Source: an uncultured Endomicrobiia bacterium
Lineage (GTDB): Bacteria > Elusimicrobiota > Endomicrobiia > DTEH01
DNA length: 57,341 nucleotides
NCBI GenBank assembly: GCA_937936785.1
Contig: CALDDQ010000023.1
Coordinates: 1-57,341 of the forward strand
Direction of reading: 5' to 3'
The notes under the pieces are model-generated. The model was given only the letters and a program-made list of their open reading frames with translations, had not been told where the DNA came from and searched no databases. A program made the position numbers and the translations under genes. Positions 33,061-50,218 of the stretch are shown piece after piece (the stretch's first letter is position 1; each line of letters starts with the position of its first letter).

Positions 33061-33098
33061 TTAGTAATAATAAAAAGTAATTTTTGGAGGATCAAATA

Positions 33099-33872
33099 AT
33101 GAAAATATTAGTAATTGATGATGATGATACAATTCAAGAATATGTAAAACAATTATTAGAAAGTACTAACTTAGAACATGAGTCAGCATATACGGAAGCA
33201 GAAGCTAAAGAAAAGTTTAACAAAGGTGGTATTGATTTGTTTTTAATTGATATAAACTTGGGTACGCAACATGAAAATGACGGAATAGATTTGTGCAAAT
33301 ATTTTAAAAAAATAGAACCAAGAATTCCTGTGATAATGTTTACAGCAAGAGATTTAAAAGAATTTAAAATAGAATCGTTTAATTATGGTGCAGATGATTA
33401 TGTTATAAAGCCGTTTAGTCCGGAAGAACTTATTGCAAGAATAAAAAGAGTGTTAAGTAGGTATGGAAAAGAAATTGTTAGTAACAACAAAATGCGTAAA
33501 GTTTTAATTGTAGAAGATGACGAATCTGTCCAGAATGTTTTAACAAACATTTTAAAAAATAACAACTGTGTTTGTTTTACTACGAACAACACTGAAGATG
33601 CATTAAAACGTGTTTACGAAATAGAACCAGATCTTATAGTATTAGATCTTCTTCTTTCATCACAAAAAGAACATGCTGCGTTTGAATTTTTAACTTTTAT
33701 GAAACAGACAAAAAAAGATTTGCCAATAATTATTTTAACTGGTAGATATCAGGAACCTGCAGATAAAACTTTGGGGCTAAATCTTGGTGCAGATGATTAT
33801 ATTTTAAAACCTGTTGAACCGGATGAGTTTATTGCCAGAGTAAATGCAATTTTTCGTGGGTTTAATAAATAA
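33099..33872 (+). CDS. Response regulator with two receiver domains and no output domain
   Basis: The start at ATG 33099 follows a perfect GGAGG at eight bases. The protein has 257 residues. Receiver 1 (residues 1-120) has the acidic pocket DDDD, phospho-acceptor Asp in FLIDINLG, the switch Thr in MFTARD and Lys in DDYVIKPF. Receiver 2 (~137-257) has VEDDE, IVLDLLLSS, ILTGRYQ and DDYILKPV. Both domains keep all key residues. There is no DNA-binding or enzymatic domain, so it probably works by protein contact or as a phosphorelay hub. The only kinase-like protein in the window is at 47221; pairing is not shown. Confidence 0.92.
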   Translation: MKILVIDDDDTIQEYVKQLLESTNLEHESAYTEAEAKEKFNKGGIDLFLIDINLGTQHENDGIDLCKYFKKIEPRIPVIMFTARDLKEFKIESFNYGADDYVIKPFSPEELIARIKRVLSRYGKEIVSNNKMRKVLIVEDDESVQNVLTNILKNNNCVCFTTNNTEDALKRVYEIEPDLIVLDLLLSSQKEHAAFEFLTFMKQTKKDLPIIILTGRYQEPADKTLGLNLGADDYILKPVEPDEFIARVNAIFRGFNK

Positions 33873-43161: not shown

Positions 43162-45432
43162 ATGAAAAAAAATAAAAAATTTATTGTAGTAACAATCATA
43201 GCATTATTAAATATAGTTGTGTATGCTGAAGCAAAAAAAATTTATTCTGTAGAGTTTAGTGGTTTAATTAATGTAAAAGTTCGTGATGCTAAAGCAAATA
43301 TAAAAACTAAAAAAGGCGATGTGTTTAATCAGAAGAATGTTAGTGATGATGTAGAGAAATTGTTATCTACGGGATATTTTGACAATGTAGAAGTTTTGTT
43401 TGATGAAGATACGAAAAAACTTATTTTTAAAGTTCAGGAAAAACCGTATATAAAAAAAATAGAATTTCGTGGAAATAAAAAAATTTCTTCGGGAAAACTT
43501 AGAGAAGAAATTGTTTTAAAAGAAAAAGAATATTTTGATGAAACGAAACTTTTTGATAGCAGAACTAAAATATTTGAGTTATATGATGAAAAAGGTTATG
43601 TTGATACTTTAGTTAATACTGAAAAAATTGTAGATCAACAAAATAAAGTTCATTTAATATTTTTAATCACAGAAGGTAAGAAAGTTGTAGTAGACAAGGT
43701 TGATATAGAAGGAAATGTCAAATATTCTCAAAAAAAGATTCGTAGTTTAATGGAAACTAAAAGGAAAAAAATTTTTAGAGAATATAAACTTAAAACAGAT
43801 TTAGAGAAAATAAATGATTTTTATAAAAATCGTGGGTATTATGATGTTAAAGTTTCAACACCACAGATTGTCTATGATGATGATAAACAGTTGGTAAAGA
43901 TTAAATTAACAATTTACGAAGGATTGTTGTATAAGATAAATAATATAACTTTTCATGGAAATAAAGTTTATTCTGATAAAAAGTTGTATAAATTACTTTC
44001 AATAAAAAAGAATAGTGTTTATAATCAGGAAATATTAAACATTTCAATTCAATCAATATACGAAATTTATGCTGATGAAGGATATTTAGGATTAAAAGTT
44101 GAACCTGAGATTACAAAAAATAGTGAAAAAGGTTTAATTGACATAAAATTTTTAATTGAAGAAAATAATAAAGTATATGTTGACAAAATTTATATTTCAG
44201 GTTTAACTTCTACAAAAGAAGAAGTTGTGCGCAGAGAAGTATTGTTATCAGAAGGAGAAGTTTTTAGTAATAGAAAACTACGTCGTAGTTTGGAAAAAAT
44301 ATATAACTTAGGATTTTTGGATGATGTAAAGGTTGACTTACAACCAGGTGGGTTAGCAGATACTGTTGATATTGAAATTAGTATTTTAGAAGGTAGACCA
44401 GGAATGTTATCTGCTGGTGCAGGGTATTCTTCCGTAGATCAACTTGTGGGTAATTTGCAGTTTTCACATTTAAACCTTTTTGGTCGTGCACAAAGGTTAA
44501 ATTTGATGTGGGAATTTGGTGCAAGAAGACAAAATTATGAAATTTCGTGGACTGAACCGTGGTGGTTAAAAAAACCAATGTCTTTAAATATTTCTCTCTA
44601 TGATACAGTTCGTCAACGAGAATATGGAACAGTGTATAGTGCTTATAAAGAACAAAGACAGGGGTTAGGATTAAGTTTAGGTCCGAGAATATCGGAATAT
44701 TTTAGTTTAGTGTTTTCATATTCATATGAAAATGTAAGAATATATGATGTTAGTTCTTTGGTTACAGATTCTATTTCAGAAGGGAAACGGTTAACTTCAA
44801 GTTTTACTTCACAGATAATTCAAGATACAAGGGATAACATTTTTGATGCATCTCGTGGGATGCGTAATTCGGTATCGTTACAGTTGGCTGGGTTTAGTGT
44901 TTTGGGTGGTGATGTGAAGTTTTATAAACCAATAATTAGATCATCTTTGTTTATTCCAACGTTCTGGAAGTTTGTGTTATCGTTTAATACTACGTTGGGA
45001 TATATAGAAGGTATTGACGGGTTTGATTTGGACAATATTAAATATGAAAAATTTTATGTTGGTGGAGCAGAAACTGTTCGCGGATATAGGTATCGTGAAT
45101 TAGGGCCTAATGACGGTGGAAAAGTTATGTTTGTGTTTAATACGGAATATAAATTTCCCATAGTTCAAGAAAATAGGAGAACAATTTTGCAAGGAGCGCT
45201 GTTTTATGATTTAGGTGGTTCATGGAGAGAGTTTAGTAATGTAAGGTTTGATATTGGAAGTTCTGAAGATTGGAATAAAAACATTTGGGATAACAAGCTT
45301 AAACAGGCTGTTGGTTTTGGGATAAGGTTTACAACACCAGTTTTTCCAATAAGGTTAGATTGGTCTTGGGCGTTAGAACCAAGGGCTACAGATACTATGC
45401 AGTTTTGGTTTACTATAGGGCAGATGTTTTAA
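43162..45432 (+). CDS. bamA: Outer membrane protein assembly factor BamA
   Basis: The protein has 756 residues. A signal peptide (~1-22, ending VYA/EAK) is followed by five POTRA domains up to about residue 385. Each shows the beta-alpha-alpha-beta pattern, for example KKIEFRGNKKISSGKLREEI and KVYVDKIYISGLTSTKEEVV. The barrel runs from about 395 to the end, with FSHLNLFGRAQRLNLMWEFG and the loop-6 motif VRGYRYRELG near residue 640. The protein ends in FGIRFTTP...WFTIGQMF. BamA inserts barrel proteins into the outer membrane. It heads the bamA-skp-lpxD cluster, placed between sugar-nucleotide genes. Confidence 0.96.
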   Translation: MKKNKKFIVVTIIALLNIVVYAEAKKIYSVEFSGLINVKVRDAKANIKTKKGDVFNQKNVSDDVEKLLSTGYFDNVEVLFDEDTKKLIFKVQEKPYIKKIEFRGNKKISSGKLREEIVLKEKEYFDETKLFDSRTKIFELYDEKGYVDTLVNTEKIVDQQNKVHLIFLITEGKKVVVDKVDIEGNVKYSQKKIRSLMETKRKKIFREYKLKTDLEKINDFYKNRGYYDVKVSTPQIVYDDDKQLVKIKLTIYEGLLYKINNITFHGNKVYSDKKLYKLLSIKKNSVYNQEILNISIQSIYEIYADEGYLGLKVEPEITKNSEKGLIDIKFLIEENNKVYVDKIYISGLTSTKEEVVRREVLLSEGEVFSNRKLRRSLEKIYNLGFLDDVKVDLQPGGLADTVDIEISILEGRPGMLSAGAGYSSVDQLVGNLQFSHLNLFGRAQRLNLMWEFGARRQNYEISWTEPWWLKKPMSLNISLYDTVRQREYGTVYSAYKEQRQGLGLSLGPRISEYFSLVFSYSYENVRIYDVSSLVTDSISEGKRLTSSFTSQIIQDTRDNIFDASRGMRNSVSLQLAGFSVLGGDVKFYKPIIRSSLFIPTFWKFVLSFNTTLGYIEGIDGFDLDNIKYEKFYVGGAETVRGYRYRELGPNDGGKVMFVFNTEYKFPIVQENRRTILQGALFYDLGGSWREFSNVRFDIGSSEDWNKNIWDNKLKQAVGFGIRFTTPVFPIRLDWSWALEPRATDTMQFWFTIGQMF

Positions 45433-45441
45433 TTTAAAAAT

Positions 45442-46137
45442 ATGATTCTTAATAAAATTTTAATTCTTACCATATTAAATACATTTTTAATACAGTATGT
45501 TTATAGTATAGAATTAACTTCAACAGATGTTTCAGTAATTCGTATTGGGATAGTGGATATGGACAGAATATTAGAAAACTATTCCATAGCACAAAAAGCT
45601 CAAGAAAATATTATAAGTTTTAAAGAAGCAAAAATGTCTACTTTGGCTGAGATAGAAAAAGAGATAGATGATTTAATGAAAAAAAGAATTTCTTTAAATA
45701 CAGAAATTGAACAGTTACAGGTTCAAATAGATAAAATAGTTATTTCTCAACAAAAATCTTTAGAATTGACATCTCAATCAACAGAAAGTTATATTCAAAA
45801 AGATGTTGAACAAGATAGTGAAATAACGAAACAAAATATTGAAGAAAGTATAAAACAACTTAAGAATGATATAGAAGTAAAACAAAAAAATTTTGATGAA
45901 GTAAGTAAGACAATTGATGAAAAAAAAGAAATGCTAAAGATAAAAAAACAAGAAATAGAATATGAGATCTTAAAATATAAAGAAAAGTTAGAAGCAGAAA
46001 TTTTTGCACAGTTATATAGTATTATAGAAAAAGTTGCTAATAAAGAAAAACTTAATTTAGTAATAGACAAAACAGCAATATTATTTGGTGTTTCGGAGAT
46101 TGACATAACAGATAAAGTTTTAAAAATGTTAAAATAA
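45442..46137 (+). CDS. skp: OmpH/Skp-family periplasmic chaperone
   Basis: The protein has 231 residues. A signal peptide (~1-22) is followed by the family start [21 protein letters not shown] long coiled coil (residues ~55-195) is rich in Glu/Lys/Gln, and the terminal [14 protein letters not shown] with [10 protein letters not shown] completes the OmpH pattern. It is longer than E. coli Skp (161), mostly from extra coiled coil. It holds unfolded barrel proteins for BamA, and its gene starts 9 nt after bamA. lpxD follows after 13 nt. Confidence 0.9.
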
Positions 46138-46150
46138 AAAAATTTTTAAG

Positions 46151-47173
46151 ATGATATTAAAAGAATTATTACAACTTGTCAATGGAGAAATAAAGGTTTC
46201 TCCGCTATCAGGTTTTTCACAGATAGATAGTATTGAAATCTTTGGCATTAATACTTTAAAACATGCTTCAGAAAAAGAGTTGAGTTTTTTTAGTAATCAA
46301 AAAAATTATGATGAATACAAAAAAACAAAAGCAAAGGTAATTTGTGTTGAAAAAAAGTTTTTTAAAGAAAACTTTTTAGATAATAATAAAATAATTATTC
46401 TGGTTAATAATATTAAAGAAACAATAAAGATTTTGTTAGACGAGTTTTATCAAGATGAAATTATAGAACCTAAAATTAGTTCTTCAGCAATAATCTCGGA
46501 TAAAGTTTATCTTGGTGAAAATGTTTCAATAGACGACTACACTATTATAAAACAGTTTTCTAAAATTGGTAATAATACAACAATAGGTGCTTTGTGTTAT
46601 ATTGGAAAAAATGTTGTCATAGGTAATAATTGTAAAATTTATCCTATGGTAAAAATTTTAGATGGGACAAAAATTTCTGATAATGTTATTATTCATTCTG
46701 GGACAGTTATTGGTAGTGATGGGTTTGGGTATTTAAAAGATAAAGATGGTAAACATCAAAAAATTAAACAAGTTGGTATTGTGGAGGTATCTTCTAATGT
46801 TGAGATAGGTGCTAATGTGACAATAGACCGTGCAACAATGGGAAAAACTTTTATTGCCGAAGGAACAAAAATTGATAATTTGGTGCATATTGCACACAAT
46901 GTAGAAATAGGAAAAAATTGTTTGATAATAGCACAGGTAGGTATTGCTGGTTCTTCAAAAATTGGTGATAATGTAATTTTAGCAGGGCAGGCTGGTATTA
47001 AAGACCATGTTATTATTGGAGACAACAGTATTGTTGCAGCACAGGCAGGAGTGATATCAGATATAGATAGTGGAAAGGTAGTTTCCGGATATCCTGCAAT
47101 AGACCACAAAGAACAGATGAAAATTATTGCAATTATGAATAAATTGCCAAAAATTTATAAGAATAATAAATGA
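46151..47173 (+). CDS. lpxD: UDP-3-O-(3-hydroxyacyl)glucosamine N-acyltransferase
   Basis: The protein has 340 residues. The N-terminal LpxD uridine-binding domain (residues ~1-100, with [15 protein letters not shown]) precedes a left-handed beta-helix of hexapeptide repeats. [20 protein letters not shown] and [17 protein letters not shown] are diagnostic, and the catalytic His lies in [12 protein letters not shown]. It adds the second acyl chain in lipid A synthesis, so the cell makes LPS or a lipid-A-like lipid. No other lpx genes are in this window. Confidence 0.96.
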
Positions 47174-47220: not shown

Positions 47221-49200
47221 ATGGATGACAACAATTTTAATAGGAATATTAACAAATTTGGTAATGAAGTTGGCAAAGAAGAAAATCTTCCAGTAGAAAC
47301 TTCACAAAAATATAATTCAGAACAACAAGAACTACAAAAAGTTGAAACATTAAAAATGCAATTAGATGCATTAGAAAGAAAATATAACATGGAAAAAATT
47401 TTACTTGACGAAAGAACAAGAATAAAACAAGAAGAAATTAACACTTTAAAAGCGCACATCTCTGAACAGAGAACTGATTTTAAGATAGAACTTAAGAAAC
47501 GAGAGGATGAAATTAGTAGTTTAAAACAAAAAATTTTTGAGTTAGAAAATAAATATTCAATAGAAATTTCTACCTTAAAAGAAAAAATAAAAAATAAAGA
47601 AGAAGAAATAAAAGATTTAAATACCAAATATGAACAGGACAAAAATAAACTTTTTCAAGAAATAGAATTTTTAAAATTACAGATAAAAACTAAAGAAGAA
47701 CAAACAAGTCAGTTAGAAAATGTTTTAAAAAAACGTGAAACTGAACTTTTGGCACAGATAGAATGGAAACAACAGGAGTTGTTAATGTTGAAATCACGTT
47801 TCGAGGAAGAAATAACAAAATTACAATCACAGATAAATATACAAAAAAATGATTATGAAAAAATCTTATATGAAAAAAAATGTGAATTAGAAGATGTTAA
47901 AAGTTCTTTATTAAAAGAAATAAATGAATTAGAAGTAAAATATGCACAAAAACAGGCCAAAGTAGAAAACTTGTTTAATCAAATAAGTGAACTACAAAAA
48001 GAGTATTATGACAAAAAAAATTTGTCTGATATTTTATCTAATCAAATTTTTGAACTTAAAAGTGAAAACAGGATTTTAAAAGAAACAATTTATTCTCCAG
48101 ATAATATTGCAAAATCAAAAATTATAGAATTGTTAGATAAAAATTTTGAATTAGAAAAAAATGTTGTTAAATTACAGCAAGATATTGCAAAAGAAAAAAA
48201 AGAAAAAGAAGATCTGTTGTTTGAAAAAAATGAAGAGATAAAAAATTTAAAACTTGATCTGGAGAAATATAACCAACAACTATCCGAACAATCAAACAAA
48301 TTTAAAGAAGAAATAGAAAAAGATTATCAAAAAAAGATTTTAAAATTAGAAGAGGAAAAATCTGTTTTATTATCTGAGATTGAAGTTTTAAATTCAGAGG
48401 TGGAAAATAAAGTTTTACGTGCACAAATTAAGGTCAAAGAAAAAGATGATATATATGAAAATTTTATAGAAAATTTGTTTTTTGGATTAGTTAATAAAAT
48501 TAAAGACATAATAACAATCTCCAACAAAGTAATTGAATCTTCTGAAAATCTAATAAAAGAAATAATAAAAAAAATAAGTGTTACAAAGAAAACTGTTTTT
48601 GATAAACTTTTTGCTAAAATTAGACTATACAATGATATGAGCGAAGTTTTAGAAAAGTTTAAAAACAACTTTTTTATTTTAGCAGAAAATTTTAAAAAAA
48701 TATTATTTTTTTTAGATGAATTTGGTAATTTGACAAAACCGATTGTGTTAAATAAACAAAAGGTTAAAATGGATGTTTTATTAAATAAAGTTTTTGATTC
48801 ATACAAAGAACTTCTTTACAATAAAAAAGTTCAGATAACTACAGAATTTGAAAAAGTTCCACAGACAAATGTTGATGAACAAAAAATTGAGTTTGTATTT
48901 AAATCAATTATTGACAATGCATTAGAATCTTTGTCAAAAGATGGGAATATAAAGGTACAACTATTTTTTGAGAAAGAAACTAATATGATAGGTATAAGGT
49001 TTATTGATAATGGCGAAGGAATATCTAAACAGGATATAGAGAAAATTTTTCAGCCATTTTTTACTACAAAAAATAATCATAATGGATTAAGTTTATCATT
49101 AGTACAAAAAATTTTAATAGTTCATAGTGGAAAAATTATAATTAATAGTGAAAAAAATAAAGGCACTACTGTAACTGTAAGAATACCGGTTTTATCTTAA
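47221..49200 (+). CDS. Coiled-coil protein with histidine-kinase-type ATPase domain, no visible phospho-acceptor His
   Basis: The protein has 659 residues, with no signal peptide or membrane helix. Residues ~25-395 are a continuous Lys/Glu-rich coiled coil. A helical part (~400-510) takes the place of a dimerisation domain. Residues ~515-659 are a GHKL ATPase: N box [14 protein letters not shown]1 [10 protein letters not shown] box [10 protein letters not shown] and G2 [10 protein letters not shown], ending [15 protein letters not shown] see no H-E/D-x-x-x-P box, so it may use another protein as phosphate carrier or not be a kinase. It sits between lpxD and a UDP-glucuronate epimerase. The double receiver at 33099 is a possible partner. 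Confidence 0.8.
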
Positions 49201-49210
49201 GGAGAAGGAG

Positions 49211-50218
49211 ATGAATATTTTAGTAACTGGTGCAGCGGGGTTTATAGGTTTTCATACTGCAAAAAGATTGTTGCTGGACAATAACAGAGTTATAGGTTTG
49301 GACAATGTTAATAATTATTACGATACAAGATTGAAATATTCAAGAATAAAAATTTTAAAAAAAAATAACAATTTTAAATTCTACAAAATAGATTTAAAAG
49401 AAAAAACAAAAGTGTTGTCATTATTTAAAAAAGAAAAGTTTGATTATGTAATTCATCTTGCAGCTCAAGCTGGAGTTAGGTATTCAATAATAAATCCATA
49501 TGTTTATGTTGATAGTAATTTAGTAGGTTTTATAAACATCTTAGAAGGATGCCGAAATAATAAAGTGAAACATTTAGTATATGCATCATCAAGTTCGGTA
49601 TATGGAGCAAACACAAAGATGCCATTTTCTGTCCACCACAATGTTGATCATCCGGTATCACTTTATGCAGCAACAAAAAAGGCGAACGAACTTATGGCAC
49701 ACACATATTCTACACTTTATAAATTACCAACTACAGGATTACGATTTTTTACTGTATACGGTCCTTGGGGAAGACCTGATATGGCATTGTTTAAGTTTAC
49801 AGAATCAATATTAAAAGGAAAAACTATTGAAGTTTATAATTATGGTAATATGGAACGAGATTTTACTTATATTGACGACATCGTTGAAGGAATTGTTCGT
49901 GTTATGAATAAAGTTCCTAAACCAAACAAAAGATGGCGTGGGGACAAACCTGATTGTTCAACAAGTTTTGCTCCATATAAAATTTATAATATTGGTAATA
50001 ACAATCCGGTTAAACTTACAAAATTTATAGAGGTTATAGAAAAGTGTTTAGGTGTAAAAGCAAATAAAAAGTTTTTACCAATACAACCCGGTGATGTGCC
50101 AAAAACATTTGCAGATGTTGATGATTTAATTAAAGATGTTGGTTTTAAACCCGCAACTTCAATTGAAGTAGGAATAAAAAATTTTGTAGATTGGTATAAA
50201 AAATATTATAAAGTTTAA
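49211..50218 (+). CDS. UDP-glucuronate 4-epimerase family protein
   Basis: The protein has 335 residues, with an AAGGAGAAGG ribosome-binding site. [72 protein letters not shown], the catalytic [14 protein letters not shown] and [16 protein letters not shown] match the GAE/CapI group. The GRPDMA(L/P)F segment is characteristic of this group. It converts UDP-glucuronate (from ugd) to UDP-galacturonate. It begins 10 nt after the HATPase gene. Confidence 0.92.

Follow-up and report, generated by a model that had tools for sequence, protein, structure and literature searches.

A soluble coiled-coil protein with a histidine kinase-type ATPase domain and no phospho-accepting histidine: a probable pseudo-histidine kinase

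What does a protein do that carries the ATPase domain of a histidine kinase and a long coiled coil, and lacks the histidine that would accept the phosphate? This question is raised by P0001, a gene at positions 47221..49200 (plus strand) of the 57,341-nucleotide stretch of DNA analysed here (the window). From its ATG start the open reading frame runs for 659 stop-free codons (659 aa) in a tightly packed gene run, with gaps of 47 bp and 10 bp to its neighbours; a promoter/terminator scan stayed at chance (71 vs 62.9 ± 9.7 and 2 vs 1.8). A preliminary description, made from the letters of the sequence, had called the product a soluble GHKL ATPase with about 370 residues of coiled coil, and all three attributes were borne out. 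Residues 31-400 (47311..48420, plus strand) are rich in E, K and L (E+K account for 35%), contain no transmembrane segment and show a heptad-type hydrophobic periodicity of 3.5-3.6 residues (near 3.55; z = 8.2) that was reached in none of 500 shuffles. A 19-residue Kyte-Doolittle scan of the whole protein gave no window hydrophobic enough for a membrane helix, the maximum of 1.52 being located within the ATPase domain. HATPase_c (PF02518) matched residues 552-657 with E = 2.4e-20, and no PAS or other sensor domain was detected by Pfam search.

Together with an AlphaFold model, this match places the ATPase (CA) domain at residues 540-659 (48838..49197, plus strand). The model was built from eight sequences and gave a pLDDT of mostly 82-96 for the CA domain and about 70 for the lid; a single-sequence model was poor (pLDDT 44.7). 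Closest to the model were ZraS (Z 25.4), YycG and HK853, with DivL also among the matches (Z 22.2), and a sequence comparison of the CA domain with the PDB likewise returned ZraS (9jfj, E 4e-16) and, among other matches, SpoIIAB (E 4.4e-05). The N box (IIDNALES, 563-570), G1 (DNGEGI, 596-601) and the F box (QPFFTTK, 611-617) are kept. The original statement that all ATP-binding boxes are intact does not hold for the G2 box in the ATP lid (49072..49095, plus strand), which in the alignment reads NNHNGLSL in place of xxGTGLGL. Comparison of NNHNGLSLS with the canonical xGTGLGL shows that the first and third glycines correspond to His620 and Ser624; GxGxG thus reads HNGLS, with one of three glycines left. 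The first of these glycines is also absent from coiled-coil kinase relatives that retain their histidine, so the change in G2 alone is no proof of lost ATP binding.

The preliminary description had further noted that no H-box is visible, and indeed P0001 has histidines only at positions 79, 620 and 635 and none across residues 80-619; a Pfam search gave no HisKA match at E <= 1. Alignment, along with two helices of low pLDDT ahead of the CA domain in the AlphaFold model, points to a DHp-like helical hairpin without histidine at residues 404-507 (48430..48741, plus strand). In a profile alignment helix 2 aligns to famH, a family of coiled-coil kinases introduced below. As this local match covers helix 2 onward only, we infer the register of helix 1 from a 19-residue stretch that aligns with LEDLARGFAHRVRNYLGIMS of the coiled-coil kinases of the phylum and puts Asn425 (AAT, 48493..48495, plus strand) at the place of the phospho-accepting histidine (GLVNKIKD vs GFAHRVRN). 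The distance from the H position to the helix-2 landmark is then 76 residues, compared to 46-47 in the family, making the hairpin about 29 residues longer. A MAFFT register that set EVLEKFKNN against the H-box was rejected, as the profile alignment places this stretch in helix 2. Neither of the two registers has a histidine at this place, and the absence of histidine is independent of how helix 1 is aligned, as every register lacks it.

P0001 is therefore a histidine kinase core that has lost its catalytic residue (Asn425 for His) and has a changed G2 box, which is what is called a pseudo-histidine kinase, and judging from its sequence it is probably such a protein, serving as a nucleotide-binding scaffold or sensor. 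Among known systems, DivL of Caulobacter (PDB 4q20) resembles P0001 in that the DHp-CA fold is kept (Foldseek E 1.6e-13, for the predicted model) and the histidine is replaced, by Tyr550 in DivL and by Asn in P0001. PAS sensor domains are hallmarks of the DivL family. P0001 differs in having about 370 residues of coiled coil in place of any detected PAS or other sensor domain, and its identity to DivL is 17-18%; with no PAS match, and with Asn where that family has Tyr or Ala in place of His, it falls outside this family. The NtrB/ZraS-type HisKA kinases are closest to the CA domain both in sequence and in the model (ZraS 9jfj), and differ from P0001 in possessing the histidine, a transmembrane sensor and a regular G2 box. 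PMC4211667 describes DivL as having neither kinase nor phosphatase activity, yet as binding a phosphorylated receiver specifically, its CA domain being dispensable for DivL activity. By this precedent, such a loss of histidine can yield a receiver sensor. According to PMC9491836, a frameshifted ChrS pseudokinase still influences signalling, and native ChrS-HrrS heterodimers were detected. Pseudo-histidine kinases are a recognised class, with the histidine missing in 722 of 76,471 HisKA domains in a published survey (PMC12632262). A literature search, which is no proof of absence in print, yielded a single general publication on coiled-coil or His-less kinases and none joining both with the presumed phylum (Elusimicrobia/Elusimicrobiota).

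Orthologues of P0001 were searched for in 59 relatives, 95 genomes of the class and 340 genomes of the phylum, and none was found among the best 4, 7 or 8 candidates scored per genome in the phylum searches, so that misses are possible there. Four genomes of the same family that were searched in full also lacked an orthologue, and a contig scan of named relatives returned 7 distant kinases only. In the class search and in one phylum search the profile included P0001, whose own score there is circular. The search for similar architectures, suggested as a check from the start, did reveal two families of soluble coiled-coil kinases in the phylum. The first, for which we coined the name famH, comprises 14 proteins from 13 genomes (loci L053-L058 and L089-L096) of about 445-495 aa, and the phospho-accepting histidine is kept in all 14. 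Like P0001, they show a coiled coil followed by DHp-CA, no transmembrane segment that we could see and a short ATP lid without the first glycine. The second family (f16; loci L137 and L145-L164, L137 being the same gene as L145) consists of long coiled-coil kinases comparable to P0001 in build and size (L137 has 630 aa), also with a lid lacking the first glycine, and unlike P0001 it has kept the histidine in 19 of 20 fetched loci and has a receiver gene adjacent in the loci read. The exception, L155 (G249, 211-2145), shares the exchange of His for Asn (VAGVANQMAN vs VAGVAHQIAN), and its neighbouring receiver retains the Asp motif; this exchange comes from a single genome and could be a sequence error. 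Aligning homologues thus brought up no overlooked histidine in the helical region of P0001: what is conserved in the relatives (14/14; 19/20) is Asn in P0001, which favours the initial reading as a scaffold or non-canonical kinase.

In the 340-genome search of the best candidates per genome, the top non-self match of P0001 (E 7.2e-28, 32%) was to L132, a famH member that is the same gene as L089, with canonical kinases close behind. A famH CA profile gave 119.4 bits for the CA domain of P0001 and 116.6 for the next non-family ORF in the set compared; with DHp+CA and full-length profiles several canonical kinases scored above P0001. The match of P0001 to the famH N-terminal profile had E 0.025 and a high bias, reached 13.7 bits in its best domain and left the motif region unaligned, and the N-terminal motif ADFWKRRYDEE of famH is absent. 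Three famH operons (G041, G057 and G024) encode, in this order, a giant protein, a PorP/LysM-like protein, the famH kinase and a receiver with an extra C-terminal part; in G007 kinase and receiver are not neighbours. The PorP/LysM label is backed by Pfam in two relatives and was given by eye in the genome of P0001, and the labels FN3-like and beta-propeller for the giant proteins were assigned by eye. In the operons read, famH therefore differs from P0001 by its histidine, its N-terminal Trp motif, the PorP/LysM-kinase order and, mostly, a receiver gene next to it.

The genome of P0001 has ten HATPase_c loci, of which six (L001-L006) have a clear H-box and two (L009 and L010) look like non-kinases, presumably GyrB and MutL. 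The remaining two are coiled-coil proteins without the histidine, P0001 and HK2 (L008), the latter in one cluster with a further protein, HK1, on contig C6. HK2 (L106:8834-9973, minus strand; also L108-L114) has Arg at the His position in the alignment in all eight loci (G000-G005, G011, G015), keeps HATPase_c in the two loci tested by Pfam and is followed by the gene of a TPR-transmembrane protein. HK1 (L175:1646-2602, minus strand; also L177-L179) is a 318-aa coiled-coil protein that carries the famH N-terminal motif and a DHp with Asn aligned at the place of His, and lacks the CA domain; orthologues in G001, G002 and G003 (57-66% identity) have Asn, Leu and Thr at this place. HK1 is accompanied by receiver-like, transmembrane, repeat-domain proteins (L106:17473-18639, minus strand; L174:2453-3649; L177-L179), which in the two genomes tested (G000, G005) were not recognised as Pfam Response_reg; counterpart receivers beside His-bearing kinases (G041, G024, G057) were recognised. 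The place of the Asp is taken by Glu in G000 (read by alignment) and by Asn in G001, Ala in G003 and Asn in G005 (read by eye, as was G002). The receiver of G002 keeps the Asp without the acidic pair, and this makes co-loss in the strict sense less convincing. A 683-aa protein in G048 (L182:1492-3543) seems to fuse coiled coil, DHp remnant, receiver-like stretch and repeat domain, which suggests that the kinase-like and receiver-like parts belong to one complex.

Other proteins of related appearance were seen in passing. The usual H-box reads SHEIRTP, and two small kinase-like proteins in Bacteroidota records (L042:7965-8870 and L043:3091-4017) have SNIRNEINNP at this position and are possible His-to-Asn pseudo-kinases. 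In G002, a 371-aa protein of almost pure coiled coil (L098:11810-12925, minus strand) lies beside a polA-like gene and shows no ATPase domain.

The presence of HK1, with a DHp and no CA domain, in the same genome speaks for a first alternative, namely that P0001 is an active kinase of another sort whose GHKL domain phosphorylates a partner in trans, either as a Ser/Thr kinase similar to SpoIIAB/RsbW or as the CA domain for a partner such as HK1. The kept N, G1 and F boxes and the SpoIIAB match (E 4.4e-05) would agree with this, yet we consider it unlikely, given that G2 retains one of its three glycines, that no anti-sigma/STAS gene was seen beside P0001 and that HK1 itself lacks the histidine and so offers no obvious target.

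Trees of the CA domain bear on the origin of P0001; three short rows were left out first and the long branches L004 and L042-L046 later. In an early tree P0001 grouped with famH and HK2 (85/94); in a fuller tree it fell outside the famH+HK2 set (98/94), within a larger group that comprised 29 rows (98/91). Constraining famH, HK2 and P0001 together cost 0.29 lnL (p-AU 0.397) and, with a later row set, gave a lnL higher by 3.68 (p-AU 0.618), so this grouping was rejected in neither case. In the first of these two rounds P0001 with HK2 alone gave a p-AU of 0.157 and P0001 with L137 a p-AU of 0.221. The later row set contained L137 and nine of the 20 long coiled-coil loci that had been fetched, and there P0001 with the long coiled-coil set (f16) gave a cost of 5.1 lnL and a p-AU of 0.295. 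We dismissed P0001 as a famH orthologue, since the early tree speaks for it and the fuller tree against it, and since another gene, HK1, is the syntenic famH-like copy of this genome. P0001 is a long branch in all CA trees, and this, the lack of orthologues in the four fully searched genomes of its family and the degenerate G2 and H boxes might indicate that the gene is decaying or is a lineage-specific leftover of little function. This appears improbable: the frame runs through 659 codons uninterrupted by a stop, its neighbours in the tight gene run are 47 bp and 10 bp away, the CA fold residues are kept (pLDDT mostly 82-96) and the coiled-coil periodicity is intact.

A role as a dedicated receiver phosphatase, in which the His-less DHp still dephosphorylates a receiver, is more doubtful still. 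Asn or Thr at H+4 is the phosphatase residue, and HK2 has one of these in seven of its eight loci; P0001 has Asp429 at H+4, and no receiver lies beside it. PMC12632262 does state that the phosphatase activity of HisKA proteins does not need the conserved histidine. Phosphorylation at an unusual site such as His79, the sole other histidine outside the CA domain, is very improbable, as this residue lies within the coiled coil about 345 residues ahead of the H position and no HPt-like motif was seen.

The genomic neighbourhood offers a hint at function. Directly upstream of P0001 and on the same plus strand lie genes for BamA (43162..45432; POTRA and Omp85 by Pfam), an OmpH/Skp-like protein (45442..46137, Pfam) and LpxD (46151..47173, Pfam), the last ending 47 bp before P0001, and an NAD-dependent epimerase-like gene, identified by eye, starts 10 bp downstream (49211..50218, plus strand). 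Sugar-nucleotide genes occur on both sides within the window, so its description as a polysaccharide locus was correct. These genes stand where famH kinases have the PorP/LysM gene and the receiver gene, neither of which adjoins P0001. No receiver gene of any kind is adjacent; a tandem two-receiver protein without output domain (window positions 33084-33872), about 13 kb upstream, is a conceivable partner. The genome as a whole has 19 matches to the receiver domain PF00072. The idea of a conserved envelope operon with lpxD was abandoned, as G001-G005, G007, G024, G037 and G057 have no such gene beside lpxD (ORFs of at least 130 aa; G041 gave no lpxD match). In G007, G024, G037 and G057 lpxD is followed by lpxC, which in the genome of P0001 is encoded on another contig and hence is not missing. 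With no such gene beside lpxD in nine other genomes and no orthologue in the phylum search, the position of P0001 is unique as far as searched, and the earlier hint at control of envelope assembly is weak. A role in envelope or sugar control is possible, and it is the neighbouring genes that suggest it.

We propose that the ancestor of P0001 was one of the phylum's soluble coiled-coil histidine kinases, that the coiled coil stands in for a membrane sensor and may hold the protein as a dimer or larger assembly, and that loss of the histidine would have ended autophosphorylation. P0001 would then work through binding to a partner, which may be a receiver domain or else a second kinase-like protein with a coiled coil. 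The DHp/CA unit of P0001, possibly switched by ATP or ADP, would dock this partner and so alter its activity or location, as DivL does in Caulobacter. A bolder and rather improbable extension is that coiled-coil kinases and receivers of the family jointly lost His-Asp phosphotransfer and now form the permanent framework of a machine in the envelope that comprises a giant surface protein, a PorP/LysM barrel and a transmembrane repeat protein, with P0001 as a free ATP-binding third member that provides a nucleotide switch in trans to the CA-less HK1.

Pseudo-histidine kinases are already known, and few have been studied; P0001 is best called a coiled-coil variant, one more and rather isolated case. 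More interesting than P0001 itself is the loss of the histidine in coiled-coil relatives from the same and neighbouring genomes. The histidine appears to have been lost several times among the soluble coiled-coil kinases of one phylum, and one His-less gene set, that of HK1, comes with degenerate partner receivers, whereas more distant genomes keep both residues. The same complex thus exists in matching live and dead forms, which could be used to test directly what role a kinase-receiver pair has once phosphate transfer is gone.
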